A DNA stretch of 64,000 nt from a virus. Below the pieces are notes generated by a model. That model saw only the letters and a list, made by a program, of their open reading frames with translations, ran no database searches and was not told where the DNA came from. The translations under genes and the position numbers were made by a program. The DNA is taken from IMG/VR virus record IMGVR_UViG_3300046616_000314, positions 222,616 through 286,615 of that record; one strand, given 5' to 3'. This document shows positions 10,077-51,400 of this stretch, in pieces (position 1 is the first letter of the stretch; the number at the start of each line of letters is the position of its first letter).

Positions 10077-10690
10077 AAAACACCACACATAATTCATTAA
10101 TTGATCTATATAATCGTCTAATGCAGTCGAACGCAAATTATAGCGTTGGTTCCACCAAATGTGACGATGATGAAGACCTAGATTGGGGTGATGAGGACGA
10201 CGAAGAGGACGACGAAGAGGATGACAATGCCACCTGTTCTACCTCCAATTCGTATAGTTCATATAACTCTACGAAGTCATTCTATCCAACACCTGTGGCT
10301 CCTGTGACACAATCTGTGAATAACGACGACGAAGTTGCGGACGCTTATGTGTTCCTGTCCAGTCCGATTGCCAAATTGAAAAATTTGTCGTTGGACACCA
10401 TTGCTGACAACATTCTCACTTACGAAATTGACGAGATCGAAAAGCGTTTCACACTGTTCGCGCACGATTCCGCTTTGCTCTCTAAGGTGTTGAATTTGTT
10501 CGAAGGCAACGAGGACGATTTCACCCTATCGTACGACTTCCGAAATTATAACGGAGAATCGGTTCTGTTAACCGAATTTACCGGGTTGAAACTCGTTTCA
10601 AATATCGTACGATACGATAGTATGGCGGATGAAAATTCGAGCCGCCGCGTTGTGTTCTCCTACTCTCACAAGACCCCCGTGAAATCATGA
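10073..10690 (+). CDS. unknown protein with highly acidic tract, upstream of rIIA
   Basis: 205 residues. Residues 31-51 are almost all Asp and Glu, followed by a Ser/Thr/Asn-rich linker and a folded domain from about residue 85. The acidic and Ser-rich composition recalls the tail of the rIIB protein downstream. Overlaps by four bases with both neighbours, so it is part of the rII transcription unit. No family recognised. Confidence 0.75.
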   Translation: MKNTTHNSLIDLYNRLMQSNANYSVGSTKCDDDEDLDWGDEDDEEDDEEDDNATCSTSNSYSSYNSTKSFYPTPVAPVTQSVNNDDEVADAYVFLSSPIAKLKNLSLDTIADNILTYEIDEIEKRFTLFAHDSALLSKVLNLFEGNEDDFTLSYDFRNYNGESVLLTEFTGLKLVSNIVRYDSMADENSSRRVVFSYSHKTPVKS

Positions 10691-12876
10691 AACTTTTTGC
10701 TGAAGACCGCGTAATTGATCGGGTTGGAACCCAAAAGGAAACGGCTTATACGATTAAGCCGACCGGAAAGGCTTTCCGAATCCTGTCCAGCGGTCTCTAC
10801 AAAGAGAAGATTCACGCCATCGTTCGTGAGTTGTCGTGTAACGCCTATGACGCCCACATTGATGCGGGTAAGCTAGACGTTCCGTTTGATATCCATCTAC
10901 CCAACGCAATCGAGCCCTGGTTCACCGTGCGCGACAAGGGTAAGGGTTTGTCCCCTGAAGGGATGGAAACGACTTACACGCGCTATTTCGAGAGCACCAA
11001 GACCGACAGTGACGATTTCATCGGCGCCCTTGGTCTGGGTTCGAAGTCGCCTCTGAGCTATACCGATTCCTTCGACGTGGCTTCCTTCTTTGAAGGAATC
11101 AAGTCGATGTACACGGTCAGCATGGACGAAGACGGTACTCCGACACTTACCCACCGAAGCGACGAGCCTTCCGATGAGCCCTCTGGCTTGGAAGTCAAGA
11201 TTCCGGTTGGTAGCAGCTATGACTTCCGCGAATTCCGCGAAAAGGCAGAACGTGTGTTCCGCTATTTCCCGGTCAAGCCGAATATCGTTGGTTCCCCTGA
11301 TTATACCATCGAAGATCGCACCCCTGTTCTAGAGGGTGACGGTTGGAAGGTGTATCCCAGCGGTCCTAACTTTGCGATCATGGGCGTTGTCGCCTATCCT
11401 CTGTCGCTGCGTTCGGTGAGCCAAGCGGGAGCGGATGACACGGTTCGTCCGTTTGAAAATCTGTCCATCGAAATTGATTTTCCGATTGGTTCGCTGGATA
11501 TCACGGCTGGTCGCGAGGAACTGTCTTTCGACAAGCGCACCATCGCCAACATGACTGCGCGCCTGGGGAATATCCGACGCGAAATCATTCGAAAAATTCT
11601 TTTGGATTTTTCAAAGTGTGAAACCGAAGTCGAAGTTCGTAAGCTCTACGGTTCGACCTTGGGTTCGAATTCGGCTCTCGCCCGCTTCATGCCTTCGGGT
11701 AAAGTGCCGTGGAAGGGTCGTATGATCGACTCTGCGCACATGAAGTTCAAGCCGTCCGACTATAAGGGCGCCGAAATTACTATGTACTCCACCGGTTATG
11801 GTCGGAGCCATAAGGCGACGGTTACGCGCGACATCTTCACGGCGATGGCGGACACGTCGTCACTGAGCATCCCTCTTTCGGGCGTGACATTTGTTGAAGA
11901 TGATGGCGTCAAGACCCATCGTCTCGCGCGTTGCCGCAAATATGTTCTTGATGCAAAAAGCAGCCAAGAACGTCTGGTTGTTTTGGGCGGCGATCCCGAG
12001 ACCGAAGGCTACAAGAAAATGATGGAACGCTTTACCGGCGTTACCATGCGTAAGCTCTCGGAATTGGAAAAGCCGGATGCTCCGGTGCGTTCCAAGATCA
12101 CGCCTAAGCAACTCACCAATTCTCAATACGAGACCGCGCAATATCGTGCCTACAACTGGCAGGGTGTTGAAATTGAAGACATGGATGAGGGTTACTATTT
12201 CGTGACTAACGCCAGCCGCGTTGTTGTGAAAGATGCAGCCGGTGTTGACCAGTTCATCAACACCGATACCATGTGGTCGATGTATCGGAACGCAATCCAA
12301 GCGGGACTTTTCAATAACGATCCCAAGGCGCAAATCACTCTCTATACCGTGCCTACGAGTGTCGCGAAGGTCATCAAGGCTGATGCTCGTTTTGTGGATT
12401 TCTTCACCCACATTCGGGAACGTTGTGCGGAAATGATGGCGGGTGAGGTTGGTCAATCGATCACGCAACGCGAAATGCACAACACCGTTGAACGGAAGTA
12501 CGACATCAATAGCGGTCCTCTGGAACATTTGATGTCAGCGTTGACTTCGATGTTGCCCACGGATCACACCATCGTTAAGCTGATGGATGAAAAGAAAAAG
12601 CATCGCAGCCTGACGCCGATGCAAATTTCTCTGAGCAATCTGGCGATAAGTCTTGGTATTCAAGCGGCTGAAGCTATCGAGCCGCCGACCGAAGAACTGT
12701 GGCTAAACATCGAACAACGATATCCGTTGATGAAACAACTTCCCGAGACTTGGTATCGTCATTCCAAAGGATCGTTGCTGTCTAACGTGGTCGAATATTT
12801 CCGAGCCATGGATGCCATCAACGCGGGTCCTCAACGTCCCAAGATCGTCGTTGAAGAAGAAAACTCGCCCCTCTAA
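10687..12876 (+). CDS. rIIA: RIIA-like protein, GHKL-type ATPase
   Basis: 729 residues (T4 RIIA 725). The GHKL nucleotide-binding boxes are clear: N-box VRELSCNAYDAH with Glu48, Asn52 and Asp55; G1 VRDKGKG with Asp83; G2 GALGLGSKSPL at 113-123. RIIA is membrane-associated in T4 and with RIIB lets phage escape RexAB-type exclusion; its biochemical role is unresolved. Start overlaps the previous stop (ATGA). Confidence 0.94.
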   Translation: MKLFAEDRVIDRVGTQKETAYTIKPTGKAFRILSSGLYKEKIHAIVRELSCNAYDAHIDAGKLDVPFDIHLPNAIEPWFTVRDKGKGLSPEGMETTYTRYFESTKTDSDDFIGALGLGSKSPLSYTDSFDVASFFEGIKSMYTVSMDEDGTPTLTHRSDEPSDEPSGLEVKIPVGSSYDFREFREKAERVFRYFPVKPNIVGSPDYTIEDRTPVLEGDGWKVYPSGPNFAIMGVVAYPLSLRSVSQAGADDTVRPFENLSIEIDFPIGSLDITAGREELSFDKRTIANMTARLGNIRREIIRKILLDFSKCETEVEVRKLYGSTLGSNSALARFMPSGKVPWKGRMIDSAHMKFKPSDYKGAEITMYSTGYGRSHKATVTRDIFTAMADTSSLSIPLSGVTFVEDDGVKTHRLARCRKYVLDAKSSQERLVVLGGDPETEGYKKMMERFTGVTMRKLSELEKPDAPVRSKITPKQLTNSQYETAQYRAYNWQGVEIEDMDEGYYFVTNASRVVVKDAAGVDQFINTDTMWSMYRNAIQAGLFNNDPKAQITLYTVPTSVAKVIKADARFVDFFTHIRERCAEMMAGEVGQSITQREMHNTVERKYDINSGPLEHLMSALTSMLPTDHTIVKLMDEKKKHRSLTPMQISLSNLAISLGIQAAEAIEPPTEELWLNIEQRYPLMKQLPETWYRHSKGSLLSNVVEYFRAMDAINAGPQRPKIVVEEENSPL

Positions 12877-12890
12877 CACGAAAATTATTG

Positions 12891-12922
12891 CTGATCCTGC
12901 CATATTTTGGTAGGATCAGTTT
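12891..12922 (+). terminator. rho-independent terminator between rIIA and rIIB
   Basis: CTGATCCTGCC / GGTAGGATCAG, eleven pairs including one G-U, seven-base loop, short T tract. It implies rIIB can be uncoupled from rIIA. Confidence 0.75.
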
Positions 12923-12970
12923 AAGATATTTTATTAACCATATCTGCTAACCATATTTTTGGAATTTTAG

Positions 12971-14098
12971 ATGTCCGCCCCATTTTCTGGAATCGTGACA
13001 CCAACAACGGTGTCGTTTACATCGCGTGATGGTAAGTCCAACGTCATTGCGGTTGGACATCCCAATTTCGATAAGATTTGTGAAAAATTTAAAGAATATT
13101 CGCAAGCCTCGAAAGCCGCTGCTGATCCGGTTGCGCTAGACGCGATTCGAGACGAGCTTGACGCTCTCACTGATTTGGCGAAGCCCATCGCTGACCTAGC
13201 AGATGGTTCGGTTGAAATCCGTTCGGGTGTTATCTATTACGAAGATGAAGCTATCCATAATGCGATCACCGAACGCATTATTTGGGGACTTCGGGAAGGC
13301 TACGACATGCAGTCGTATATCCGCTTCCTGAACAACATTATGGAAAATCCGTCCAAGCGCGCTGTCGATGAAACCTATAAGTTCATCGAACGAAACAATA
13401 TGGGCATTACCGAAGACGGTATGATCCTGGCGTACAAGCGCGTCCGTGATGACTTCAAGGACATTTGGTCGGGTAAGTTTGACAACACCCCTGGCAACGT
13501 TGTGCAAATGAAGCGCAATCAGGTTGACGACAACAAAGAAAAGACTTGCTCAACAGGTCTGCATTTCTGTTCGATGCCTTATCTACCGTACTACGGTACC
13601 GGTCCTGGCAACACGATTGTTCTCGTGGAAGTCCATCCGAAGAACGTTGTTTCGGTCCCGGTTGACTATCATTTCGCCAAGGCACGCTGTTGCGAATATA
13701 AGGTTATTGCCGAGTACAAGGGCTCTGACAAAGACGATTTCCTGGCGACCCGCCCGGTTTGGAACGTCGATGAATTGACTCCTTCTGACGATGACGACGA
13801 TGATTGGTCTTCGTCTTCTTCGGAATATGAAGATTTTGAAGATGAAGCGGTCGCCCCCTCGATCACCACGGTTGATGGTTCGGTTGTCGTAACCGTTCCG
13901 GTTGACGATGCCGAATGGTCCTCTTCGTCTTCATCGGATGAATACGGCTTCGAAGAGTCGGATGGTGAAACCGTCGTGGAACCTGCTGCAAAGGTCCCGC
14001 CGGAAGAACTGGCTGAACTGGCTGAAATTGCCAAGCTGTATATGTATGACGCCACCACGGGACAATACATTCCCCACAACGAGAATGATCCCAAGTGA
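12971..14098 (+). CDS. rIIB: RIIB-like protein with acidic/serine tail
   Basis: 375 residues against 312 in T4 RIIB. The conserved core runs from about 85 to 265: ITEDGMILAYKRVRDDFKD, CSTGLHFCSMPYL, VVSVPVDYHFAKARCCEYKV. The extra C-terminal part holds two acidic/serine blocks (DDDDDDWSSSSSEYEDFEDE and a second WSSSSSSDEY), absent from T4. The 80-residue N-terminal portion is helical. Its stop overlaps the next start. Confidence 0.92.
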   Translation: MSAPFSGIVTPTTVSFTSRDGKSNVIAVGHPNFDKICEKFKEYSQASKAAADPVALDAIRDELDALTDLAKPIADLADGSVEIRSGVIYYEDEAIHNAITERIIWGLREGYDMQSYIRFLNNIMENPSKRAVDETYKFIERNNMGITEDGMILAYKRVRDDFKDIWSGKFDNTPGNVVQMKRNQVDDNKEKTCSTGLHFCSMPYLPYYGTGPGNTIVLVEVHPKNVVSVPVDYHFAKARCCEYKVIAEYKGSDKDDFLATRPVWNVDELTPSDDDDDDWSSSSSEYEDFEDEAVAPSITTVDGSVVVTVPVDDAEWSSSSSSDEYGFEESDGETVVEPAAKVPPEELAELAEIAKLYMYDATTGQYIPHNENDPK

Positions 14099-20828: not shown

Positions 20829-20850
20829 AGGCACACCGTGCCTTCACTTT
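20826..20850. terminator. bidirectional terminator between convergent genes
   Basis: GAAGGCAC / GTGCCTTC with a three-base loop, flanked by ACTTTT on the plus side and an AT-rich tract on the minus side. Confidence 0.75.
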
Positions 20851-23800
20851 TAAACTCCGTTCCAGTTGGGTACGAAGTTTGACGTATATTTTGCCGTGCT
20901 AGAGAAATTCAGATTACGATACTGGGTTTCTCTGGAATTTTGCGGAGTTGAACCACTAACGGTGAAATCAGCAAAGTTGTTTACCGCGAACACGATATTG
21001 TTGAATGCGGTCGATCCGGGGTCGATGACGGATGAAGTCGCGATCTGCGTGCCGTTCTGATAGACACGCATTGTCGTACCAGATTTAACAATAGCAAAGT
21101 GCGTCCATACGTTTAGACCGGCGAACGTACCCAAGTCAAACACCGTTCCGTTGTAGTAAGCATTCCAATTTCCGGTTCCGGTTGTTTGGAATAGACGGAA
21201 CAGATTGCTTGTTCCGAATGAGAACAAGTGTGGGCTGCTAGTGGCGGTTTGTACACCAACCTTGATCCACAATTCAGCCGTGAACGCCGACGATGCAAGA
21301 ACGCTGAAGCCAGTGCTCGTATTCGAGCGCAAGTACGATAGACCGTTGCACTGCATGACAGTATCGGTGTAGCCATTAGGCGCCGTGCTAGACACCAGAG
21401 CGTTCGTGCCTGCCATGGCAGTCAATGTGATCGTACCAACGGTGGCAACAAGCGGGCTTACCGTGGTATCATTGAAACGCCAGCTTTGAACCATATTGGG
21501 GTTCGTCACTTTGATTGGTTTCAGCAATACCGTACGCGACAGACCTGGGTTTTTATTGCTATCGTAGTTCTTAAGTAGAACAGAATAGTTTGAACCCTTA
21601 TATTCGGGCATTGCGCCACCGATATACTGAGCCGGATTACCACCAACGATGGCGTTAGATACGCCCGGTGGTCCTGTCACGACGACGTAGTTGACCGGTG
21701 TTGCTGAAGTATTTGAGTATACCGGAGCCACCAAGGCAGAACTTTCGTTCGCAATTGAAATGGTTTCACCACCACCAGTTTCCCATTGTGGCGGATTCAC
21801 ATATGCTTTCGTTTGCGGAATGAACGTAGCTGAGTAACGGCTAATTGTCGAAATGCGCAGTTCATCAATGAAGCAAGGCAACGCAGGACGGTCGTTTTCT
21901 CCCGAGCCAGGACCGAAACCACCGATTGTGAGCGGTTGAGACGACCCGGCGGCACCAGCACGAGCAACAGTAGATTGTTGCTCGCCGTTAACCCATAGGG
22001 TTAGGACCGAACCATTTACAGTGACCGCAATGTGATTCCATGTATTCAATGGCAACGGAGCAATAGAGCGCGCCGCTTGGCTATATGGATAGGCGGGACC
22101 AATGGCGTTAGCACCACCGTTATACGGTGCGCCACCGCCGATTCGACCGTCACCCTCTACGAACAATCCAAAGATTTCATAGACATAACCCGATCCTTGG
22201 GCATTTCCGGTGGTAACGATCCAACGTCGAGCGGGTGGATATGCAGTCATATACAGTTGCAGTTCAACAGTATATGCGCCTGCACTCGCGATGTCGAACC
22301 CATCGTGTGTACGGAAAATGTCAAAGCGATCCGAAACTGTAGAAATTTGAATAGAATTTCCACCAAATTTCGACACAATACTTGCTTGAGCCATACCCGT
22401 GACAATTTTACCACGGCGATCATTACCACTCCAATCGCGAATGCTTGTGGCATCCTTGAGACGAGCGGGCGTGAAGTTGGACGAATAAACCGCATTGCCG
22501 TTAGTGACGCGCAGTTCATTCATATTTCCGAGGAAGAAACATTCGGCGGTACCGATATTCGTTTTACCGATCCAACCATTGGAACCAGCCGGGAACGGAA
22601 TAGCACCGGAGAAAGTTGACGTTCCATAGAGAACGCCGTTCACGAAATAGCTGAATGTTGTTCCGTTGCGAACCCATGCGACGTGCGTCCATGTCTTGAG
22701 CGGAATATCAGCCCCAGTGATTCGAGAATTATGAACGACGAAGCCGTTACTTGTTTCACGGATATGCAGACCTAACCCATTAGGAACCGATGTACTATCC
22801 CCGGTGATCTGGAAAGAAATACCCCATCTAGCAACATCCGTCGAAGCCCCACCGACACCAACGTTGAGAACGGTTGAGGCGATACCGACACCGCCGCCGC
22901 CACTATTGCTTAAGCCGTCAAGATAAACCCATGCTTCGACCGTAAAGTTATTCGAAGCCAAGTTCAGGCGTGTAGCACTCGCATTGGTTACGATCCAGCT
23001 AGAGCCGGGGAAGTTATAGGAACCAGAGCCAGAGCGCATGACGTTAGCAGACGCTACGGTGCCAGACGTGCTCAAGGTGTGATTGCCCGTAAAGTCAACG
23101 AGATTATCACCTGGGAATAGCAACGCAGTATTTGCAGCCAGTGCATCGGTTATGCGATCAGCGTGCGACATGAACCAAATACGATCTGTGTTCAAATCGG
23201 TATTAGCCGGATCATCGTCGGCGTTGATGAAGAAATCACGGGACGTTGTTTTGGAATGGTTATTTGTTGCAATAACTCGTAGCGGCAGAGATTTCGATTC
23301 CGAGACATACGGAATCGTGCCCAAGATCAGACCATTTGAATACAGAGTCAGCGAGTTAGCGAGAACAGCATAATTTGAATCCAAAGAATAGTTGACTATG
23401 CCACCATAGTCTTCATCACGTGCATCAAATTGGAACGAGAACGCTCCGGTTTCAACAGTATTCGCCCCAATCTTGCCCGGTGGCGTATACCAAACCGGGT
23501 GCCCTTGGGGAGTAATCTTCATCGAAAATTCTTTATCGGTACGAATATATCCGTCCGAAACGCCCAATGTGAAATAGTATGTTGTTTCAATACTGTCGTC
23601 AGGAGCAATACCCGAAATATTTCCAGAATTTGCGAAGTCAGAATTGAACGTAATACCGTTAGGCAAAGCATTCGCGACCAAGGAATACTGAAGTGTTCCT
23701 TGGGGTTGTTGTTGGAAAGGCGTTCCTAGATTGACATCGTTATCCGGGTCCGTGGCTTTGAACGTAAACGACATAGTAGCATTGGCGCCAAAATTACCAA

Positions 23801-26800
23801 TGTAATCAGACGTAACCCATTGAGGCGAGCGGTTTTCATTCGTGGTAATTTGGAATGTTCGATCAGTGAACTTACCGGAATTGGTAATGACTGCGCGTAC
23901 GACGAACGTAAACGTTTCATTGCCTGTGACTAGAGGCATACGACCAGTGATACGACCGTTGCCTTGAACCTGTAGACTACCGGGAAGCTTACCACTCGCG
24001 CGGCTATAGCTGATAGTTGTCATGTTCGGTTCGTGAGCAACAACATTTGCCGAATAGATCATGTCTTCGGTTCCGCGAGGCAGAACCGGTCCAGTATCCC
24101 AAATCGGAAGATTTTCTAGAACGGTAGTCGAGAACGATTTGACACTATACGCGGGCGTTGCAGGCGGTGCAGCGGGATCGCGATCTAGTGTGGCACGAAC
24201 CGAGAACGAATAAACCGTAGGGGTATTGACGAGCGCGGGCGTGCCGTCGATCACGCCGTTGGCATGAAGAACCAAACCAGCCGGGAGCGTACCGGATTCC
24301 AGCGTATAAATGACATTGGTTTTTACCGTTTGTGTTTGCAATTGGAACGAATACGCAATGCTTTCAACCGGTTGGTCGATATGATCTGTCAACCAAACCG
24401 GCGGCGAATTGGACCATGAGCGAATTGAAAATTGACGATTGCGATACAACAACCCATCGGACGCTCTGATATATGCAGAATGTTCAATATACGGCGTAGC
24501 TGTAGGGCGACCACCTGGGGTGAATGCATCCACGGTGACGCCAGTACCCGTAATCAAACCATTTGTGTCAACGGTCCAACCTCTGAATGCAATACCAGAA
24601 GCGATGACATCTAGAGTATACTCGATAGTATAACCATCGGGGTCGTACGCTACTAATTGATAATTAATGGGATCGCGTTCATTGACTTCCAAGATCAAGC
24701 CAGCATTAGTAGTCCACTCAGGATAATGATTGGCAAGAACGCTGATGCTGTAGTTTTCGGTAGGAAGATTGACACCATCCGAAGCCAAAACAGTAAAATT
24801 ATACGTGACATCACTGCTAGAGTTTACGTCAGTTGTACCAGAGATTACGCCCGTATTGGTGTCGAAGCTCAAGCCCGGCGGAATACCATCGCCACCCGGA
24901 AGGATGGCATATTGGATTGTTGAACCGAATGGGTCGATGGCAAGCGGGCTACCATAGGAAGAATCCCAGTTATAACCCGACATGATCGTTCCCAAGTTGC
25001 CTTGGTTTTGGAATACGGGCGGCTCGTCGTGAACGATGTCCAGGGTATACGTCTTGGTATCGCGCGCACCATCTGGGTCTTCGACTTCAACCGTAAAGGT
25101 GTACGTGTCAAAGCCCGGTTGAGGATGCGGTGGCGTAGTACCCGTGATGGCGCCGTTGGATTCCAAGGTCATCAAGTTCGGTAATGAACCAGCGGTTCGG
25201 GTGAACGTGAGGGTTTGGTGTTCCGGGTCAACGGCGTTGATTTGATAGAACACAGGCTTGTTTTCGAGCAAACGAGTTAGCTGACCTTGAGGGGTGAGCA
25301 ATTCTGGGTCTTGGTTTCCGAGGCTCGTCAACGTAAATGTTTTATATGTTTTATTGACAGTATCGGTGACGTAAACAACCACCGAGTACGTTGTTTGAGT
25401 TGCCGTATAAGGCAAATCACCCGTCAACTTACCATCCAAGGACACAGACAGATGGCTTCCCGCTAGCGTAGTGCTATCGAGATAATATTCGAGTGGCGGT
25501 TGACCGTTGGCGTCCGTAGCCAACAGTTGAATGACAGGAAGGGCGTTATTAGAAATATACGATCCTAGATCGGCATCCGTTTGCCACACAGGCGGGAAGT
25601 TTTCTTCAACCACCAGATTGAAGGTACGATCCTTTTGCGTCGCGCCGCTGTCTGCCCGAATGGTGAAGGTATAGGTCTGAGAGCCGCCTTGTAGAGGCGT
25701 AGTGCCATCAATAAATGCAGGTTGTCCCGGTGCAGGATTTGGATTGAAGTTCAACCCAAGCGGAAGCGTGCCACTGATCATGGTGTAATTCATGTTCGCG
25801 GCATTATCACCACCGGCTTCAAATGTAAGCGGAGCAATGATTGAATTTTCCAGCACTTTTAGATCAATGGGCGTAATCCACTCAGGTTCACCCGTGTATA
25901 GAATAGTCAACGTGACGCTATGTGTACCGTCATCAACTAGGCTAAACTGCGAGCCGCTGTCTGAAGCCCATGTTCTATCCCACGCACCGATGTTGAACGA
26001 AACTGTTGTATTTTCGGTTACTGGCGGAAGTTTGCCGCGCATTTCACCCGAAATCATATTCAGTTCGACGCTACCGATGATGTCGGCTTTATCTCTGAAT
26101 ACGTACGTTGTCGCCCAATGATTTTGATCACCAATGCTCAAAATAGAACCTGGGGACATTCCTAAACCAGTGTATACGATTGCTTGTGCATTCCAGAAAC
26201 GTTGATCCGGGTCAAACTGTGTCGGGTCTTGGACACCATTGACCATTGCATCGACCGTATTATAGTCATATGCATTAAACGTAATATTGCTGAATGTTGA
26301 ATTCTCATTGAACGTAAAGTCGTAAACGTTGTTCGGATTAAGCTTGGGTCCAGTATTGAATAGGGCAGTATACGTCACCATCAACGGAACAGAATTATTA
26401 ATACCATCCGAAGCAACGATGATATCGTATGGTTGCAACGGCGGGATAGCCGCGCGCTCATCGTACTGAATACTTGAATTGGAAGTAAGTTTGTGACCCC
26501 ATGGCGGGAAACGCCCGTTCATGGTTTTAGCAACCTTGATGTCCAAATCTTGATTTTGCGACACGTAAGTCATACCCGACCCATTGTCTAAGACCAGATA
26601 GTCTATAACAGTCGTGTTAGTGAGATCATTGTATGGATCAAGATAGTAATTGATAGTATGCCCCTGGCTAATTGGCGCGGTCATGCCAATGTTTCCGGGT
26701 GTAACTAGCGTATTGTTTACATAATAATAAACAAAGTCTCCATTGGGGTCGATTGCATTAATAAGGTGTTCACCACTACGAATTTCGGTACGACCAAAAA

Positions 26801-28475
26801 TCGAACCCAAATCAAGAATATGCATTCCAAGCGCAGGATTATATGGAATGTTGCCTTGCCAAACCGGAGGCTTATCTTTATTGATGATTACTGTATAGGT
26901 AACAGTATTCGTGACGTTCACGCCATCGCTGGCAGTGAATACGAAATCATACGACTCAGAATCGGTATTGATAACCGAATTGTGGATTGTGCCCGCGCCC
27001 GTAGCAGCGTTGAACGTGTAAAGATTTACCGGTGCATTCGAGCTAACAAGGTGGTACGTGAAGACGTTGGTTTCGCGGTCAGTAACGGATACGGTGAACG
27101 AACTAGTTGCCGTGTCTTTCTTAGTCAAGATCACGCCACTATTAGCGGTCCAAGTCGGAACAGTGTTGAACCAAGCTGTAACTTTAGCGTTGGCGCGAAG
27201 AATGTGAACACCATCGGTAACTTCGACATCCATAATCATGTCAATGTCTTGGGACGGAGTAGCCGGAAGCGTGCCGCTGACCATGCCGGTGTTGGCATCA
27301 AACACCATCGGCGACCATGTTGACGAATGGACAGTGTAAATTAGATTTGTGCCGTTAGGATCGGTTGCCAGCGGTAATGTAAATGATGGCGTCACGCCGC
27401 CCAAATATGAGCCCAACGACACGAAACCGTTAACAATGGGGTAGTTCCATTCAGGCGGATAGTTCTTGAGAACCCGGAACCAGCCTTGCGTGGATGATTT
27501 CTTCAAACCATCGTTGGCGGTAACAGTGAACTTATAAACGTTAGGGTCGATTTTCACGCCCGGCTCAAGCTCAACGTATGCATTGGCGAGTGCGGTAATG
27601 ACAACCGAGTTGGTGACAGCATTCAGGGTTGCGTCATACGCGGTCGAAGCCGTGTACGTTGCGCCAGCCGGAAGGCTGTTTGCGGTATACGTAACGAATT
27701 GATCGTCTTCAGGCGCCAGTGCAATGTATTCCAGATTCACTAATGTATTTTCAAGGAATTCATTAGTGACTGGGTATGTAGAAAAATACGGAGGTAGATT
27801 GTTCTTTGTTGTGATCGTGAACAATTGTGTATTGTAGTTATTGAAATCGCATGTGATCGCAATAGCAAACGTATACGTTTCCGTGTTGATGACTTCGGGA
27901 AGAATACCAGCCAACCGCCCGGTGTTTGGATTCAGGAACACGCCTTCGGTGATATCATTCGGCTTCGTCGGCGGTGAGCCCGCGCGAATGACAAACGTGA
28001 TAGGGCGCATGGCGTCGTCGTGTGCCAACAGGCTGAAGTCAAAAAACTCACCTTCGTATTTCGCAAGACCAAGCGGACCTTGGGGAGTATCCCAGATAGG
28101 CGGCGGAACAGAATATGTGTTATCAACCAAAATGGTAAAATCGCGGGGAGACGACCACAGACCATTCGAAGCAGTAACGGTGAAATCAAAAATTTGCGTG
28201 TTATCGACGCTTGGGAGATCACCGGTGATTTCGCCCGTGTCTTGATTAAGCTCAAGAGTATAGGGGAATTCGCCACCGGTCAGATAGTATTTGATGGGAC
28301 GTGCTTGCGGATCGGTTGCAACGAGTGTGAAGTTAAATGCAGTAAATTCCACGCCGACGCCAATAACACCAATGGGCGTAACCCACTGGGGAGCATCGGG
28401 ATTACCGACTGTAGATTTGACAAAATTCAAATTTACAGGACCGATCAAACTGATTTTCTTCAAATTGACAGACAA
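20850..28475 (-). CDS. giant Ig-like/LamG repeat adhesin or tail fibre, 2541 residues
   Basis: Residues 1-1760 are about 17 Ig-like (putative-Ig, cadherin-like) repeats of about 95 residues. Each begins near P-x-W-x-T-x-x-G-x-L-G and contains an acidic DP-x-G-x-x-[IL]-x-Y stretch, SGxLPxGL and a closing F-x-V-x-A-x-DG. Then come three LamG/concanavalin-like domains (about 1770-2000, 2000-2225 and 2330-2541) with TVEAWVYLDG, NTWNHIAVTVNGS and RYSxxFxP signatures. Start is TTG with GGAG eight bases ahead and a CATAAATA late-like box 24 bases upstream. No signal peptide. Architecture suits a receptor- or glycan-binding virion fibre. Paralogue of the 3445-residue protein at 45.4-55.8 kb. Confidence 0.88.
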   Translation of the reverse strand: MSVNLKKISLIGPVNLNFVKSTVGNPDAPQWVTPIGVIGVGVEFTAFNFTLVATDPQARPIKYYLTGGEFPYTLELNQDTGEITGDLPSVDNTQIFDFTVTASNGLWSSPRDFTILVDNTYSVPPPIWDTPQGPLGLAKYEGEFFDFSLLAHDDAMRPITFVIRAGSPPTKPNDITEGVFLNPNTGRLAGILPEVINTETYTFAIAITCDFNNYNTQLFTITTKNNLPPYFSTYPVTNEFLENTLVNLEYIALAPEDDQFVTYTANSLPAGATYTASTAYDATLNAVTNSVVITALANAYVELEPGVKIDPNVYKFTVTANDGLKKSSTQGWFRVLKNYPPEWNYPIVNGFVSLGSYLGGVTPSFTLPLATDPNGTNLIYTVHSSTWSPMVFDANTGMVSGTLPATPSQDIDMIMDVEVTDGVHILRANAKVTAWFNTVPTWTANSGVILTKKDTATSSFTVSVTDRETNVFTYHLVSSNAPVNLYTFNAATGAGTIHNSVINTDSESYDFVFTASDGVNVTNTVTYTVIINKDKPPVWQGNIPYNPALGMHILDLGSIFGRTEIRSGEHLINAIDPNGDFVYYYVNNTLVTPGNIGMTAPISQGHTINYYLDPYNDLTNTTVIDYLVLDNGSGMTYVSQNQDLDIKVAKTMNGRFPPWGHKLTSNSSIQYDERAAIPPLQPYDIIVASDGINNSVPLMVTYTALFNTGPKLNPNNVYDFTFNENSTFSNITFNAYDYNTVDAMVNGVQDPTQFDPDQRFWNAQAIVYTGLGMSPGSILSIGDQNHWATTYVFRDKADIIGSVELNMISGEMRGKLPPVTENTTVSFNIGAWDRTWASDSGSQFSLVDDGTHSVTLTILYTGEPEWITPIDLKVLENSIIAPLTFEAGGDNAANMNYTMISGTLPLGLNFNPNPAPGQPAFIDGTTPLQGGSQTYTFTIRADSGATQKDRTFNLVVEENFPPVWQTDADLGSYISNNALPVIQLLATDANGQPPLEYYLDSTTLAGSHLSVSLDGKLTGDLPYTATQTTYSVVVYVTDTVNKTYKTFTLTSLGNQDPELLTPQGQLTRLLENKPVFYQINAVDPEHQTLTFTRTAGSLPNLMTLESNGAITGTTPPHPQPGFDTYTFTVEVEDPDGARDTKTYTLDIVHDEPPVFQNQGNLGTIMSGYNWDSSYGSPLAIDPFGSTIQYAILPGGDGIPPGLSFDTNTGVISGTTDVNSSSDVTYNFTVLASDGVNLPTENYSISVLANHYPEWTTNAGLILEVNERDPINYQLVAYDPDGYTIEYTLDVIASGIAFRGWTVDTNGLITGTGVTVDAFTPGGRPTATPYIEHSAYIRASDGLLYRNRQFSIRSWSNSPPVWLTDHIDQPVESIAYSFQLQTQTVKTNVIYTLESGTLPAGLVLHANGVIDGTPALVNTPTVYSFSVRATLDRDPAAPPATPAYSVKSFSTTVLENLPIWDTGPVLPRGTEDMIYSANVVAHEPNMTTISYSRASGKLPGSLQVQGNGRITGRMPLVTGNETFTFVVRAVITNSGKFTDRTFQITTNENRSPQWVTSDYIGNFGANATMSFTFKATDPDNDVNLGTPFQQQPQGTLQYSLVANALPNGITFNSDFANSGNISGIAPDDSIETTYYFTLGVSDGYIRTDKEFSMKITPQGHPVWYTPPGKIGANTVETGAFSFQFDARDEDYGGIVNYSLDSNYAVLANSLTLYSNGLILGTIPYVSESKSLPLRVIATNNHSKTTSRDFFINADDDPANTDLNTDRIWFMSHADRITDALAANTALLFPGDNLVDFTGNHTLSTSGTVASANVMRSGSGSYNFPGSSWIVTNASATRLNLASNNFTVEAWVYLDGLSNSGGGGVGIASTVLNVGVGGASTDVARWGISFQITGDSTSVPNGLGLHIRETSNGFVVHNSRITGADIPLKTWTHVAWVRNGTTFSYFVNGVLYGTSTFSGAIPFPAGSNGWIGKTNIGTAECFFLGNMNELRVTNGNAVYSSNFTPARLKDATSIRDWSGNDRRGKIVTGMAQASIVSKFGGNSIQISTVSDRFDIFRTHDGFDIASAGAYTVELQLYMTAYPPARRWIVTTGNAQGSGYVYEIFGLFVEGDGRIGGGAPYNGGANAIGPAYPYSQAARSIAPLPLNTWNHIAVTVNGSVLTLWVNGEQQSTVARAGAAGSSQPLTIGGFGPGSGENDRPALPCFIDELRISTISRYSATFIPQTKAYVNPPQWETGGGETISIANESSALVAPVYSNTSATPVNYVVVTGPPGVSNAIVGGNPAQYIGGAMPEYKGSNYSVLLKNYDSNKNPGLSRTVLLKPIKVTNPNMVQSWRFNDTTVSPLVATVGTITLTAMAGTNALVSSTAPNGYTDTVMQCNGLSYLRSNTSTGFSVLASSAFTAELWIKVGVQTATSSPHLFSFGTSNLFRLFQTTGTGNWNAYYNGTVFDLGTFAGLNVWTHFAIVKSGTTMRVYQNGTQIATSSVIDPGSTAFNNIVFAVNNFADFTVSGSTPQNSRETQYRNLNFSSTAKYTSNFVPNWNGV

Positions 28476-28499
28476 GTTACTACTCCACGAATGATAAGG

Positions 28500-28507
28500 T
28501 ATTTATG
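28500..28507 (-). promoter_or_regulatory. T4-late-like octamer (CATAAATA), minus strand
   Basis: Reads CATAAATA on the minus strand, 24 bases before the TTG start of the 2541-residue adhesin; the leader carries GGAG. Confidence 0.55.
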
Positions 28508-28559
28508 CCTTGTAAAAATTGGAGTTTTTAAAAAACTTTCGTAGATCGGCATTTTTATG

Positions 28560-28588
28560 TTGCATCCCGCCCCGGTATTCGGTATTCT
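28560..28588 (+). promoter_or_regulatory. promoter of the giant structured RNA
   Basis: TTGCAT at 28560-28565, 17-base spacer, TATTCT at 28583-28588; predicted transcription start near 28596. Confidence 0.55.
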
Positions 28589-28595
28589 ATAAAAA

Positions 28596-29871
28596 GAGTG
28601 AGGCGACAGAGAAATCCGAACCAAACCGAACCAAACTCGTCAGTAACAAATAGCGTTTTTGACGAAATTTATTATTGACACCGAGCCGTGGAAACGGTAA
28701 GGTACAAATCCTAGCCCACTTAGGCAGAAGGTCTTTGGTTCGCCGAAGATTGCGTAGTGGAAGTAGCCTCACCCGCAAGGGGTGTACTCGTTGGATCGAG
28801 AAAGGCGAAAATAGGTAATCAACTTCGGTTGATTCGATGAATTGATAAACAAAAGTTCCCTGGTGGGGGAGTACCGCAGTAAACGCGAGGTTTATCTATT
28901 CATCCAATCATCTGAGGATGGTACAGAATTGCAGCTTGGGCTAGATAGTGTGAGGGAAACCTTACATGAAAGGGGCGAGGGATCACACGACCCCCTACCA
29001 GTAATGGTCAATTCAAGCAAGTCCAGACTTGCCCGAAAGGGTTCTTCTAGTATCGCAAGGTATTAGGAGATAGGTCGGAAAGTGATGTATGGGTTTCCTG
29101 AGAGGGAAATGTTGAGTGGCTGGACGTTCCGGCTTCTGGCTTGCCAGGGGTTGTAAACGGGCTCTCATAAATTGGGTTCGCATCCGATGCCTTACGCGAA
29201 AATCACTCATGACGGATAGTCAATGGATAGTCGAAGGGTTCAAGCCTTAGCGGGCGAGGGCGTTCGGCAGTTTGAAGGTTGGTGGGACACCCTAATCCGG
29301 TGGCACACATGACCTGAAAAACACCCAGAAGTCTCTTAGCGGAGACGAGGGAAGAGGCGTAAATGTATTAGCTTGGGAAACCGAGTTAGCATTTGTCGAT
29401 ATGGCACGTCTTGTGATCTTGGGAAACATACAGATGGTATCTTAACCAACTTGGTGGCTAATACCCACTACGTTTTGAAAGCCCAAGTCTGTATCGGACT
29501 CATGTCTGAAGTTGCTTAAGCTCTGACCGAAAGGAATCAGGGGACGCGGTAGCTGCAAGGCGAAACGTTTGATGGTGAAGAAACTCATAATCGGGCAAGC
29601 ACCCGACGAACTGGCTCGCAAGGCTTGGTGGGGATTACGGTAGCCGTCGAAAGGACATGAGGTACGCGGGAATTCGCCACCCAATCACCCGTAATGGGCG
29701 CGATGAAAGGCAGCAACGGTGAATACGGTTTGACCCGCAAGGGCAGATCGTGGATAAGGCGAAGAAACCAGACTCCCAAAGTTTGGCATAATATCGCCCA
29801 AAGATCACCACGATACGCGGTAGTCTCACGCTATCAAAACAAAAAGGCGTCCTTCGGGGCGCCTTTTTTGT
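28596..29871 (+). ncRNA. giant structured non-coding RNA, about 1.27 kb (GOLLD/ROOL-class candidate)
   Basis: A 1.4-kb stretch between a divergent fibre gene and a small gene has no credible ORF on either strand, but carries a promoter at its 5' end and a strong terminator at its 3' end. It is packed with short perfect stems closed by stable tetraloops. UUCG: AATCAAC-ttcg-GTTGATT (28819-28836). GNRA: CACCC-gcaa-GGGGTG (28780s), GTGAGG-gaaa-CCTTAC (28950s), ACCA-gtaa-TGGT (28997-29008), CCC-gaaa-GGG (29032-29041), CTAGTATC-gcaa-GGTATTAG (29047-29066), GCTTGG-gaaa-CCGAGT (29370s), CC-gaaa-GG inside CTGA/TCAG (29520s), CCC-gcaa-GGG (29734-29743). A long-range helix ATCGTGG (29748) / CCACGAT (29808) closes the 3' domain. 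Group II domain V, group I core, RNase P, rRNA and tmRNA signatures were not seen. Size, phage location and tetraloop density resemble ornate large RNAs such as GOLLD and ROOL; identity is inference. Confidence 0.8.
29842..29869 (+). terminator. terminator of the giant structured RNA
   Basis: AAGGCG, short inner stem, CGCCTT and six T, ending the RNA immediately before the next late-like octamer. Confidence 0.88.
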
Positions 29872-29873
29872 TG

Positions 29874-29881
29874 TCTAAATA
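29874..29881 (+). promoter_or_regulatory. T4-late-like octamer (TCTAAATA)
   Basis: TCTAAATA five bases before the ATG at 29887, no Shine-Dalgarno. Confidence 0.5.
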
Positions 29882-29886
29882 TGTGC

Positions 29887-30288
29887 ATGAGGGTGCATAT
29901 GACAGCGGGAAGATTTAACGTCGGAAGTTCGGACGATGGTCCGATGATCCTGTACTATGCCCCGCCAAGCCGAACCTGCGTCGGTGTTCCGATGATGGTT
30001 CTCGCACCCGATGAAATTGGAATGAATGGCGGGCGCCTGACCAATTTCCACGACGAAGATTTGGATTTTCCTATTCGCGTAATGGTTGGCTCCGATGATG
30101 AATTCGCCGCCATCGTAACTTGGGTTGCGCAGAACACCGGACCATGGTCTTTTTCGGAAGGTGTATTGGACACCACATTTAATAGATTTTTATCTTGGGG
30201 TTGGGATCGCGGTAGACCGCTCCCAATCCTTTTTTCGTTTTTAAGTGATGACGACGCCGCCATATTCAAATTGAAATGGTCGAAATAA
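29887..30288 (+). CDS. small protein of the dispersed family
   Basis: 133 residues from ATG 29887; ATG 29899 (MTAGRFNVG) is the alternative, and the octamer spacing favours 29887. The C-terminus LFSFLSDDDAAIFKLKWSK is one of the clearest copies of the family ending. Function unknown. Confidence 0.72.
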   Translation: MRVHMTAGRFNVGSSDDGPMILYYAPPSRTCVGVPMMVLAPDEIGMNGGRLTNFHDEDLDFPIRVMVGSDDEFAAIVTWVAQNTGPWSFSEGVLDTTFNRFLSWGWDRGRPLPILFSFLSDDDAAIFKLKWSK

Positions 30289-35968: not shown

Positions 35969-36802
35969 ATGTCCAACATTACTATAGTTTCCGCTTTCTT
36001 CGATATTGGGCGAGGAAACTGGAAACAAAACGTTTCCAAGAACGGTGGACCGCTCCCACATTATCTAGAACGAAGCGCAGAAACCTATATCGAGCGTTTC
36101 TCGTTCCTCTGTCAACTGGAAAACGAAGTCATCGTTTACACCAGTCCAGAATACGCGCCCAAGCTTGAAAAGATCAAGACCGATCTCAATAAACAAAATA
36201 TGACCGTGGTTCCGATTGACTTCCCTGGTCATTATTCTGATTTGCGCGCCAAGATCGAAAAAATCCAACAAGACCCGGAATTCCTTCCGAAGATCAATCC
36301 CCAACAAGTTCGGAACCCGGAATACTGGTCCCCGGATTATGTGTTGGTGACTTCACTCAAGGCGCATTTTGTTGCTGATGCTATTGATCGTGGCATGGTT
36401 ACAAATGAAATGGTCGCATGGATCGACTTCGGTTATTGTCGCGATGGTGCAGCCCTGAACAAGACGAAGAAGTGGGATTACGATTTCAATCCCGACAAGA
36501 TTCATTTCTTCAATTGTAAGCCGGTCGATCTAGACAATTCGAACGCCCAAATCGGTCATGCAGTCGTCAACAACGACGTGATCATTTTCGGCGCCAAAGT
36601 GGTTGCCGCGAAGAAATTTTGGAAGCCTCTCGCCAACAACATGCATCAATGCCTAGATATCCTGATGGAATCGGGGCTGGTGGATGATGACCAAGGTTTG
36701 TGGCTCATGAGCTATTTTTCAAATCCGGCTCTGTTTGAGCTACATGCCATCGACTACAACAACCCCTTTATCGTGTTCAACAAATTTAACAAATATGAAT
36801 AA
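35969..36802 (+). CDS. HtrL/YibB family protein (putative glycosyltransferase-like)
   Basis: 277 residues. N-terminus ITIVSAFFDIGRGNW, then HYLERSAETYIERFSFL and VIVYTSPEY, the typical HtrL_YibB opening, with DQGLWLMSYFSNPALFEL near the end. The family neighbours LPS/capsule genes and has a glycosyltransferase-like fold. First gene of the glycan cassette. TATAAATT (35946-35953), close to the late octamer, lies upstream. Overlaps the next gene by eight bases. Confidence 0.8.
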   Translation: MSNITIVSAFFDIGRGNWKQNVSKNGGPLPHYLERSAETYIERFSFLCQLENEVIVYTSPEYAPKLEKIKTDLNKQNMTVVPIDFPGHYSDLRAKIEKIQQDPEFLPKINPQQVRNPEYWSPDYVLVTSLKAHFVADAIDRGMVTNEMVAWIDFGYCRDGAALNKTKKWDYDFNPDKIHFFNCKPVDLDNSNAQIGHAVVNNDVIIFGAKVVAAKKFWKPLANNMHQCLDILMESGLVDDDQGLWLMSYFSNPALFELHAIDYNNPFIVFNKFNKYE

Positions 36803-45415: not shown

Positions 45416-48400
45416 TTAGAAGTTGCCGAGTTGTCCCGGCGGTGTGAATGGTGTGACATAACGAGCCACGCCCTTTGTGATTCTGATGTCATCCAAATAA
45501 CCGTTGAGGTTAGCGGTATAGGATGCAACCGGATTACCACCTAGCAATAGCGCGCTTCCGGTTCCGCTTGGGAACGAGAATGACGATGTTTGTGAACCGA
45601 CGAGATTTCCATTCAAGTAGCAACGGAAAACGCCCGATTGTCTGACAATGGCAATGTGATGCCATGTATTAACAGGGATGCTTGCCGATGGGCTGAACGT
45701 AAACGTGCTGCCCGAACCGCTATAGAACGAGATAGCAGTTCCCGCCGAAGCAGTAGGACCGCCGACGTGTAAGCTCCAAACGCTTGCAGTGGAAACGTTT
45801 GTTGCAGCAGGCGGTGAATAGTGCAGTAGTTGTGAACGATAGTCGCCGCCGCCAGCAGCAGTCAGTGCAGTAATATTGAACCATGTTTCCATGGTGAAAT
45901 CACCGGTTCCGAAATCTAGACCAGCGGTAGGGTTGGTCTGGCTTTGAGTGATAGTTTGAGTAACGGTACCTGGGAAGGATACCGAAGAGTTACCAAACTG
46001 CTTCTTAACCGTCGAGATCGATGCGCCATTGGCGGTAAAGGTACAGTTGCCAGTAGAATCGGTAAGAGTGCCTTCACCGTTTACGAGAACGCTAACGCTC
46101 GCGTATTGCGGATCATCATTCGGAAGCAATGTGAATTGTTGCGTCGGTGGTGTGAAGGTTCCGCTATAACGAGATACGCCATTGGTGATACGAAGATCGG
46201 TAATGGCTCCGTTATATCCGTAGTTCGCCGGGACTTGTTCATAACCACCAAGACCGATGCGCGCGGAGGTTTGACCCCAATCCGATACTGTTCCGTTTGT
46301 TGAACCGACCGCGACACCATTGACCCAAAGGGTAGAAAGTGTACCCGAGCGAGTAAGAGCAATGTGAGTCCACGTGTTGAGCGGGATAACCGGACCAACG
46401 ATGCGGTCAACCGCTGATTCGCGCAGAACCAATTGTTGCGAAGCATTGACACCGATGAAGTAACCCGGTCCTGAACCGTTCGGGTTGTTGGACAGATAGA
46501 AACTATACAGACCGTTCGGTGGCGCCGCCGACGCTGGTTGAATTTGGTGAATCCACGCTTCGATGGTATAGGCGCCAGTCATTTGAGGAATGCCGCCGAC
46601 ATACGAGAAATTACCAAACGAGAAACCAGCCGTTGTTTGATTGCCCCACTTGCTTACCAATTGGGTCAATACACCGCCACCGCCTTGAATGGTGATAGCC
46701 TTGCCCGAAGAACGTTCGGTCAATTGTGCGCCTGGGTTGCCGATCATTGGCATCTGAACAATAGTATTCGCCAGATACGGGTCAACGACAACGTTATATG
46801 TAACAACCGCATTTGACGTAGAAGATGCATTGGTCGCGGATACCGTGGTATTGTAAACCGTAGTATTCGATAGGAATGGCATCTTGCCTGTCAGCAACGA
46901 ACCGTTGGCAATAAGACCGGTTGGTTCATTTGCCAACGTGAACGAGTTAGCATTGAACGTTGCGCTATAGTTCAAGACGGCGTTCGAATACGCTGTTGTA
47001 TTGTTCAACAGGATTTGCGGAGCCGTGTTTGGTTTGTTAGGCAACGGTTGTGTCGGCGGTGTGAAGTTCGCTGTATAGCGACCAACGCCCTTCGTATAGC
47101 GGAAGTCATTGGTGAAACCAACGTGACCAGCGGACGCGGCTTGACCTTCATAACCACCAACTGTCAGTCGTTGTGTGCTGGGGCAGAACGTTCCAACGTA
47201 TACTTGGCTCGTACCGATCAAGTTACCATTCATGAAGAAATAGCTGGTGCCCGCAACACGTGACCATGCAAGGTGGACCCATTGATTCAGCGGGAAGGTA
47301 ACGCCAGCGCCGCCACCGATAATGTAATCGGTCGTCGGAACGTAGAAGCGCAATTGACCAGCCAAGTTAGTATACATCAGTGTATCGTTTGCAGTAGTAG
47401 TAGTGTAGGAGCCAAAGAACGCATCATATGCTGTAGCATACGCGGTTTTGTAGAACCAACCTTCAACAGTGAAGTTACCGGGTGAAGACAGTACGCCACC
47501 AGTATTGGTAACGAATGCATAGTTGTTAGCCAATGTTTGGAACGACTGTGTTCCCCACTTGCTTTGTGTTGCAGACAACACCGGAGTACCGGTTGTGGTA
47601 ACGGACTTACCAGTAAGTTCGGCTGGGACAGTTCCAACAGTACCGTACATCGGCATCATAGCAACGACGTTAGCATAATAGGTGTCGAGAATTTCCGAAT
47701 CGACCGCTTGGAAATTAATAACACGGTCGGTGTAGAATACGTCAGCAAGAGCGCGAACCGTTACGTTAGCAGTAGCCGCAGTAGTATTTGCGAATGTTAC
47801 AGCCATTGTACCGGTAGTGCTGTTAATTGTAGCAACGCCCGGCGGCGTGCTTGAAGCAATCGTATAGGTGATCGCAGCCGAAGTATCAACCGATGTCGCG
47901 GCAATAGTCTTTTGAATAACCGAGTTTGCGTAACCAACCGCAGTATTAGCCGAAGGAGTATTCGTAAAGATCGGGTTCTTGATGATACCACCCAAGCGAC
48001 CTGGGGGAGTGAAGTTCGTAGTATAACGAGCATTGCCGTTAGTAATACGAGCATCATCCATGAAGCCGTTGTACGGAGAAGTCCAGCTAGTTACGTTAAT
48101 TCCACCAAACTGAATGAAACCGTTGGGCGGGAAATACATAGAAGCCGTAGGACCGGTGAATGCATTGGTTGTGGTTCCAACGTTTACGCCGTTGAGGAAG
48201 TGCAACATATTTGCACCGCTACGAACGAACGCAACGTGATGCCATGTGTTCAACGGGAATGTCGCTTCGGAGAACGTAGCCGCCGTATTGAGCATCGCCG
48301 CGCCACTATTGGATTGGTCACGGGCTTGGAAACCCAGACCGCTAACACCGGTAGCAGTACCGCTTAGGTAGAAGCCCATTGCGTTATATGTATTTACGGT

Positions 48401-51400
48401 CGATCCATCGGTTAGATTCCACAGACAGCCAGAATAACCCGCATTCGATGTATTGGTCAGACCGGGTGTATAAACCCACGCTTCGAAAGTCCAATCGTTT
48501 GAGCCAAAGCTGAAGCGTGGGCTTGGTGTTGTGCGAGCAATAGTTCCGACTTGGCCATTGAAGGACAAGCTTGCTGTGCCATATTTGTATGTCGATGTCG
48601 AACGTGTGGCAGTGAACAACGTGATTGTTTTACCAGTAGCGTCAACCAGATCATCTTGATAGAGCAAGACAACGTTGGAATAGAACGGATCGGCTGTTTC
48701 GGCAATAACGGTGATGTCTCGAATTGGCGCGGTACGTGACTTGCTGTCTGTCGCCATAAAGCTAACAGTTGAAGCATTGCCAACGGTCGCGGGAGCATTA
48801 CCGGTCAGTGCGCCAGTGGAGTCAATACCGATACCCGAAGTCGTGGCATTGGCTAGACCGTAGGACACTGTAGTATTTCCAAACGAAGCAGCGGTATATG
48901 CCACCTGAATTGGAGCATTGTTCGCAACGTATACTGTTGTGCTTTTCGAATTCCAGTACGGTTGAACGAAAGAATTCCAGCTTGGGGTGAAGTTGGTATT
49001 GTACTTCACGGTTGACCAAATATTCATCGAACGAATCAAGAGGTTCGAAATGTTATTGATAGTACCAGCGTTGCCGTTGTTGTAGTTACCGATAGTCATG
49101 GTATCACTATCGAAATATGTCAATGCAGGCGTGGTAACAGCACTTGATGCCACGTTTACACCATCGGCGTACAGATAGATCGTTGAGTTAATTTTGACCA
49201 CGGCAAGGTGATGCCAAGTATTCAGAGACAATGTTCCGAACGAATTGGTAACGTTGTTGTAAACGTTCTTCCATTGGTTATCCGCTGGATCATAATAGAC
49301 GAAGAATTTAGCTGTAGAACCAATACCGAATACAAAGCGAGTATTAGTAGCACCCGGCGATGCCAGTGGGTTCAACCATACTTCGTAAGTGAAATCGCCA
49401 ACCAGCGCACGGATAGAAGAAGTATCCGTGGTCATTTTGGTGACGGTTTGGTTGTAGTAAGCAGCGGTATCGCCCGAATAACCTGGGGCGGCAACCATGG
49501 TCGGACCAGTGGCATAAGTAGTGACCGCCGCAGTACCAACGTCAGGAGCCAAGTTAGTATAGGTGACTCCGGTCGCGCGGTTCAAACGCCAGCTAAGAGC
49601 AAGAGCCGGGGTTGGGAACACGGACGGGATTACGCTAAAGGTACGAGTAGATGATTTGTTACCGTTGCCTTCTGTTTTCTGAATACCAAAGGCATAGCCA
49701 GTTGGACCAGCCGCGTATGGCAAGGTCCCGGTGATAGCACCGGTGTTGGCGTTCAAAGTCAGAGTGGACGGAAGGGCGCCGCTTGTAACTTCGTATAGTG
49801 CGTAGCCGAGGTTGTAAGGATCGGTAGCGGAGACAACAACGTTCGCTGTCGATTCTTCGGTAGTTGTCGCCAGGGCGCCCGCCGGGGTGTTCCACAACGG
49901 AGCATTACCATATGGGAATTCAGGTACGACATACGACGCGCCCGAATAACGAGCAACATCTGTCAAACGAACATCATCGGTGTAACCACGGAATGTCCAA
50001 CGCGGGCTTGCACCCGTACCGCCGATGTTGAGACCGGCAGTAGATGTTGCGCGTGTAATGGCTGCGTTGGAAACACGAGTGCCATTGACGTAGGTTTGGA
50101 CAGTAGAGTTACTTACGGAATATGAAACATTAAACCATGTATTCAGTGGAACAGCAGCAGCCGAGTTACCAATGCTTACTGCACTTGTGCCATTGTATGT
50201 GAAGAATTCAACCTTGCTTGTAGCATTGCTGACACGTGCGCTGAAGTATTCACCGACGCTAGCTGTTTTGTAGAACAAATAGTTGTAGCTTTCAGCAGCG
50301 GTCGGATAGGCAGTGAGATAGAACCAACCTTCAACGGTGAAACTACCCGATGTGGTATTTTGATTTGTACCTGTCGCAGCCGCCGGAATAACCATCGCAG
50401 TTGCATTAGACATGCGAGCCGAAGCAGCACCAAACTTGGAAACAGCCGACGAAGTATTAACCGCGCCAATTTGTTGAGTATAAGTGCCGTAATAATCTTG
50501 TAACGGCATTTGATTTTGAGACGGCGTGAAATTAGATGAATAACGCGACGTGCCTACGGTCATACGAATGTCATCGAATTTACCGAGGAAATTGAAATTC
50601 GATAGACCAGTTCCACCAGCAACGAATGTTGTCGCACTAGTCAAAGTACCATCATAGTAATTGGCTGGGGCTCCTTGCGAAACACCATCAACGAACAAAG
50701 TAACCGCCGTTCCGTTGGAACACATTGCCACATGGTGCCAATCCGTAATATCCGAAATTGCAGCATTCGATACCAAGATACCAACGGTATTTTCCAGAAT
50801 GCGAATGGTGTTATTAGTTAGGAATTCCATACTAATAGTATTCGGAAGACCCTGACCGCCAACAGCCACAATACCTTCACGGTTTACACCCAAGCGGTCG
50901 CGCTTAAGCCAGAATTCTATTGTAAATGGCTTATTATCCAACGATGATGGTAGAGCAACGACCGCAGTCGAGCTATTTTCCGCAGCAATAAGGCAACCAC
51001 TACCGTATTTGGGAGCCGTGGTCCCGACTGTACCAACACCCGAGTTTGTATATCCGGCGTAGTTTATGGTATCGCCATTGAAAGGTAGGAACACGACGAC
51101 ATTTGCCCACTCAGAATCGGGCATCGAATCGAAGTGGTTGAGATATGTAACTTTGTCAGAATTTTGGTCGAGATAGCTTGTGTCGTTCTTGACTGTGAAG
51201 TTGAATGTCTTTTCAGACCACTTGCCCCAAACGTCAGTAGCGCGGGCAGTGAATTCCGCTCCAAGATCGTTGTTTGTGCTAGGAGCCAGACCACGAACGG
51301 CGCCATTCGAATACAGGGTAATCGTGCCCGGCAATGCAGGGCTGTTGACCATGGTATAAGTGACAGCATCACCATCGGGATCGGTGGCAAGTAATGTAAC

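Follow-up and report, generated by a model that had tools for sequence, protein, structure and literature searches.

A region without protein genes in a 561-kb phage very probably encodes a highly divergent GOLLD RNA

The window analysed here is a stretch of 64,000 nucleotides from a virus record of 561,116 bases (IMGVR_UViG_3300046616_000314). Between 28596 and 29871 of the window (record positions 251211-252486), a preliminary description of the sequence had seen no protein gene and had compared the region with GOLLD and ROOL, large ornate RNAs of phages, and this raised the question of what the region encodes. Both strands considered, its longest ORFs were 63-80 aa. The best Pfam match of the ORFs inside the region had an E-value of only 0.059, so the region is gene-free as described and a coding explanation was rejected. 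When the DNA was compared with annotated phage and plasmid records, the terminator alone matched. The carrier is a phage, and genes resembling rIIA and rIIB occur in the same window, as does a baseplate-wedge-like segment. We conclude that 28596-29871 is very probably one non-coding RNA gene of this 561-kb phage, a highly divergent GOLLD, with the features listed in Table 1.

Table 1. Features of the RNA locus, in coordinates of the window
Feature	Position	Strand	Evidence
Possible T4-like late promoter TATAAAAA, weak	28588..28595	+	Motif match; no commoner than in shuffles
Private 5' segment	28596..28915	+	Fold z -4.0; relatives none found
GOLLD 5' domain (cage cap domain in env-38)	28916..29351	+	nhmmer profile homology and leave-one-out pairs
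GOLLD 3' domain (cage ring domain in env-38)	29352..29832	+	RF02032 match and leave-one-out pairs
Variable linker, tRNA-free	29413..29473	+	ARAGORN, Rfam E<=10; place of a tRNA in 17/28 relatives
Long-range closing helix, arms and enclosed part	29498..29663	+	Square-bracket helix of the Rfam model
L21a-like and L21b-like hairpins	29591..29632	+	Alignment with relatives; naming of the hairpins is our own
Intrinsic terminator	29841..29868	+	12-pair stem, UUCG loop, T run

All 4227 Rfam models were scanned against 28400-30000 at E<=10, and GOLLD was the sole significant match. In this permissive scan, 29352-29832 matched positions 1-416 of 416 of RF02032 with 98.1 bits (E 4e-26); the Infernal search with the GOLLD model that had been proposed as a check was therefore positive over the full length of the model. 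The same check with the ROOL, OLE and HEARO models was negative: ROOL (RF03087) had no match in 28400-30000 at E<=10, while OLE, HEARO and other Rfam models gave merely short chance-level matches at that threshold, mostly to the terminator. At the default gathering threshold of Rfam nothing was found in the region. The gathering score for GOLLD is 150, a curation threshold, and the undoubted divergent group of GOLLDs spans approximately 115-220 bits. Since 98.1 bits lies below 150, automatic annotation misses this GOLLD. It was the only GOLLD found in the 561-kb record, and no ROOL was found in the whole record in a search run without a positive control.

The long-range helix that had been described for the 3' part is real; it is the GOLLD model's closing helix, approximately 29498-29506 with 29654-29663, which is paired here save for one mismatch. 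In the L21a-like hairpin the loop is CAAGCA, whose conserved GC is kept by the relatives aligned there; in the L21b-like hairpin the loop is CGCAA, likewise kept by the aligned relatives. An imperfect 22-nt direct repeat (CGAAAGG...ACGCGG, 73%) was also observed in the 3' domain, at 29528-29549 and 29648-29669, 120 bases apart.

In our survey, IMG/VR was scanned for the conserved 3'-end signature and the contigs were then scored with the GOLLD family. Canonical GOLLDs scored approximately 250-340 bits, above the divergent group, and two outliers were obtained, this RNA with 98 bits and a locus of record G133 with 81 bits. This RNA sits on the continuum of GOLLD scores. The G133 locus (G133:30754-31238, L372) is a GOLLD-like match that is yet more divergent. 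Two GOLLD matches were present in some records (G159 contig C7:366610-368046, L397; G088:19736-20149 and 36280-36673; G154:167864-168218 and 215867-216331), and in one record the paired matches were arranged in tandem approximately 500 nt apart. The second match of G154 was weak (40 bits) and may or may not be a member of GOLLD.

By direct nucleotide search, the closest relative was the GOLLD of IMGVR_UViG_3300031957_002643 (L402/L405), which matched 29174-29841 of the window (E 1e-19) and shared 61.5% identity over a 369-nt segment. It differs in having a linker tRNA with anticodon UCA, whereas none is present here, and in having no counterpart to the 5' segment. The phage carrying it also differs in that a 479-aa marker protein of the present phage (36735-38174) was not found there in a search run without a positive control. 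Relatives of this protein were detected in 46 other records, many of them as short fragments, and a GOLLD was present in 2 of the 46; in addition, the protein was not found in eight phages with divergent-group GOLLDs, again in a search run without a positive control. GOLLD is therefore not tied to the gene for the 479-aa protein.

The 5' part was connected to GOLLD independently of the Rfam model. An iterated nhmmer profile seeded by the 5' part of this RNA recruited 5' domains that sit at the right distance from the GOLLD core in over 25 further phage GOLLDs, and in later rounds the profile also reached a segment of canonical GOLLDs. The left edge of the homology was common to the relatives and lay near 28909-28933, with no match to the left of approximately 28909 and most matches starting at 28909-28963. 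The 5' domain here is approximately 430 nt long and forms a separate and less conserved region of GOLLD (28916-29351). An exact scan with a 32-nt piece of it gave no match. The T-loop-like GTTCGCAT at 29171-29185, previously taken as a further hint, falls in the alignment on one of the hairpins that vary in the GOLLD 5' domain, and is no part of a tRNA. A tRNA remnant at this position was dismissed on the basis of that alignment and because neither ARAGORN nor Rfam detected a tRNA.

The check for covariation in homologues, which had also been proposed, was positive. In an alignment of 29 sequences that was made with a sequence profile only and not fitted to structure, 76 of the 101 consensus pairs had changes on both sides. 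RNAalifold gave -108.8 for the full alignment of 29 sequences, compared to -2.9 +/- 1.8 for shuffled columns, and -87 kcal/mol for the 20 recruited 5' domains, compared to -4.9 +/- 2.1 for shuffled columns. In the leave-one-out analysis, the consensus structure was predicted without this sequence and its pairs were then counted; in the slid control the pairing partners were shifted by 1-3 columns. Both domains taken together, 75 of 99 pairs were formed here (33-44 of 99 in the slid control). The corresponding numbers were 34 of 36 (slid, 12-17) for the 5' domain and 40 of 61 (slid, 20-30) for the 3' domain. About one third of the 3'-domain consensus pairs was thus unformed in the sequence-only alignment, a part of them because of misalignment at hairpins of unequal length. 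At fifteen pairs, both bases differ here from those of the commonest pair, yet pairing is preserved. Helices covary in both GOLLD domains, the homologous 5' domain and the 3' domain that matches the full model.

These results bear on two other explanations. The RNA might belong to a new class of large ornate RNAs with a superficial likeness to GOLLD, as its score under the Rfam gathering threshold, with nothing found at that cut-off, and its private 5' segment without relatives would suggest. However, the GOLLD model was matched end to end (E ~1e-25), the 5' domain is independently homologous to other GOLLDs and the leave-one-out pairs agree in both domains. We give this explanation next to no probability for the RNA as a whole, and for 28916-29832 it is refuted. 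The statement that the RNA may be a new class was therefore wrong, since it is a GOLLD that has diverged to approximately 47-57% identity from its relatives; the broader claim, which placed it among the large ornate RNAs of phages such as GOLLD and ROOL, was right, both the GOLLD model and covariation being positive. The RNA is a new divergent member of GOLLD, ordinary in kind and unusual in divergence, and only its private 5' segment could be new. It is also very unlikely that a decayed, non-functional copy, with a low score and a lost linker tRNA, is present here. Only one of the GOLLD loci scored as main matches has a lower score, and 22-24% of the consensus pairs are unformed. In contrast, the 15 pairs that were changed on both sides and still pair, together with the 34 of 36 pairs kept in the 5' domain, indicate that changes were compensated, as expected under selection. 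The terminator is intact, and the linker tRNA is likewise absent in several relatives.

In the linker (29413-29473), no tRNA was detected by ARAGORN or by Rfam at E<=10, which led us to dismiss the idea of a tRNA remnant there. The linker is approximately 60 nt long in this RNA. A tRNA was found at its place in 17 of 28 aligned relatives, with several relatives having none, and the linker tRNAs of the divergent group comprised 19 sequences of many isotypes. The presence of tRNAs within GOLLD linkers has been reported before (PMC12286853). As this GOLLD is without a linker tRNA, carriage of its own tRNA is not an obligatory function. The record contained 37 tRNA matches, the nearest approximately 48 kb upstream of the RNA, which is thus not located in a tRNA island, a frequent position of GOLLD (PMC12286853).

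Hairpins with GNRA or UNCG loops and a stem of 4 or more contiguous pairs, G-U included, numbered 10 in 28596-29871. Dinucleotide shuffles counted in the same way averaged 1.7 with at most 6, and 189 equal-sized windows elsewhere averaged 2.1, again with at most 6. With Watson-Crick pairs only, 3 tetraloop hairpins were found where 0.3 were expected; the earlier count of at least nine perfect hairpins therefore stands if G-U pairs are included and fails with Watson-Crick pairs only. The folding z-scores against shuffles were -4.0 (28596-28920), -2.6 (28921-29351) and -3.0 (29352-29835). The strong terminator that had been described is present, whereas the promoter was not confirmed. No sigma-70-like site was found there when searched for, and TATAAAAA at 28588, which resembles a T4 late promoter, is a motif not above chance (TATAAAWA in the window, 4 observed and 4.4 expected in shuffles).

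Among GOLLDs, the 14-mer cage is known for env-38 only, which forms a closed homo-14-mer of RNA, 380 angstroms across, with the linker inside, the 5' regions as caps and the 3' regions as rings (PMC12286853). The loops L21a and L21b of env-38 make the cage contacts B8 and B9, joining two half-shells (PMC12286853). The phage RNA retains the two domains as well as the closing helix and the L21a/L21b loop features. The best inference is therefore that it assembles in the same way, and by analogy self-assembly into an RNA cage is its most likely mechanism, which we consider probable, if by no means assured. Transcription would proceed rightwards, probably late in infection, and would end near 29868. 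As in env-38, the RNA would fold into two separate domains, and many copies would dock via kissing loops and A-minor contacts to give a closed RNA-only cage, the interior of which the tRNA-free linker of about 60 nt would face. Expression that rises in lytic growth has been reported for other GOLLDs (PMC12286853), and according to PMC7567579, phage production did not require the GOLLD of a Lactobacillus brevis prophage. Tentatively, we favour a role in which the cage encloses or shields a cellular component during lytic growth.

The private 5' segment, 320 nt long and well folded on its own (z -4.0), had no match in 161 GOLLD loci (28596-28915, nhmmer, E<=1) and none in Rfam. One of its hairpins, used in an exact scan, returned six chance matches with no further alignment. 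The region had been described as being at the large end for such RNAs, but its size is not exceptional for a GOLLD locus. Approximately 780-1510 ORF-free bases were found upstream of the ~400-nt 3' core in 13 of 20 sampled better-matching GOLLD loci, and six of the remaining seven were interrupted merely by minus-strand ORFs of 114-139 aa. Another possibility, to which we give roughly one chance in three, is that the region yields two RNAs, GOLLD proper from approximately 28910 as in env-38 and 28596-28915 as a separate small RNA, processed leader or inserted element. The sharp end of homology at 28909-28933 leaves a 5' domain of ~430 nt, like the 5' region of env-38 (420 nt, PMC12286853), and in several relatives (L275, L277, L386) that boundary closely follows the end of a tRNA gene. 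However, searches for a terminator between the two parts and for a sigma-70-like promoter near 28900 found neither, and the long helix of the 5' segment extends to approximately 28917, abutting the 5' domain. A single RNA gene is the reading we prefer. That the 320-nt segment constitutes a third structural domain of this RNA, resulting in an appendage or in a cage larger than or differently shaped from the 14-mer, appears unlikely.

In comparison with RF02032 and env-38, the present RNA has a full 3' domain, a homologous ~430-nt 5' domain, a variable linker and the L21a/L21b features, and it is likewise located in a phage genome, in an ORF-free locus with a terminator at the end. It differs from RF02032 in its ~47-57% identity to the nearest sequences, its 98 bits (115-340 in nearly all others), the extra 320-nt 5' segment, its lack of the linker tRNA found in 17 of 28 aligned relatives, and its distance of ~48 kb from the nearest tRNA gene. 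ROOL is also a large phage-borne ornate RNA, and the studied ROOL member is an RNA-only cage (PMC12286853), but its model, RF03087, has no match here at E<=10. By description, the abundant orf-less transcript of ICP1 (~800 nt, PMC7567579) is similar in being long, ORF-free, from a lytic phage and away from tRNA genes.

Few natural RNAs are known to build a cage without protein, and GOLLD is among them; a 561-kb phage is hereby added to its carriers, at a divergence missed under the Rfam cut-off. A homologue at approximately 50% identity with its pairing kept is useful for finding the essential cage contacts. The absent linker tRNA implies that such RNAs need not carry a tRNA within the cage. 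Whether cages of this type can become more elaborate could be tested concretely on the 5' extension.

In the surroundings of the RNA, the rIIA-like and rIIB-like genes are adjacent (window 10687-14098), and giant minus-strand ORFs occupy 20850-28475 (2541 aa) and 45416-55753 (3445 aa). The baseplate-wedge-like segment lies within the scanned part 20850-23150 of the 2541-aa ORF; no PHROG match was found in 23150-28475 of the same ORF. Relatives of the gene downstream of the RNA (29881-30288) were searched for and none were found.

Linker tRNAs of other GOLLDs included Asn, Gln, Pro, Leu, His, Ser, Cys, Tyr, Asp or Lys tRNAs. In a 100-kb contig (G071, L267), the linker tRNA had the anticodon CUA of an amber suppressor, and in the 335-kb contig IMGVR_UViG_3300031957_002643 (L405) the anticodon UCA is that of an opal suppressor. 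It is possible that the L405 phage reassigns TGA and that its GOLLD houses the suppressor tRNA. Against this, its tail-sheath gene is without TGA. With TGA read through, ORF coverage of two fetched stretches increased from 0.70 to 0.90 and from 0.71 to 0.99. The same phage has a release-factor-like gene (PCRF and RF-1 domains) with, in our own reading, one in-frame TGA where Trp fits and a PxT-like motif.
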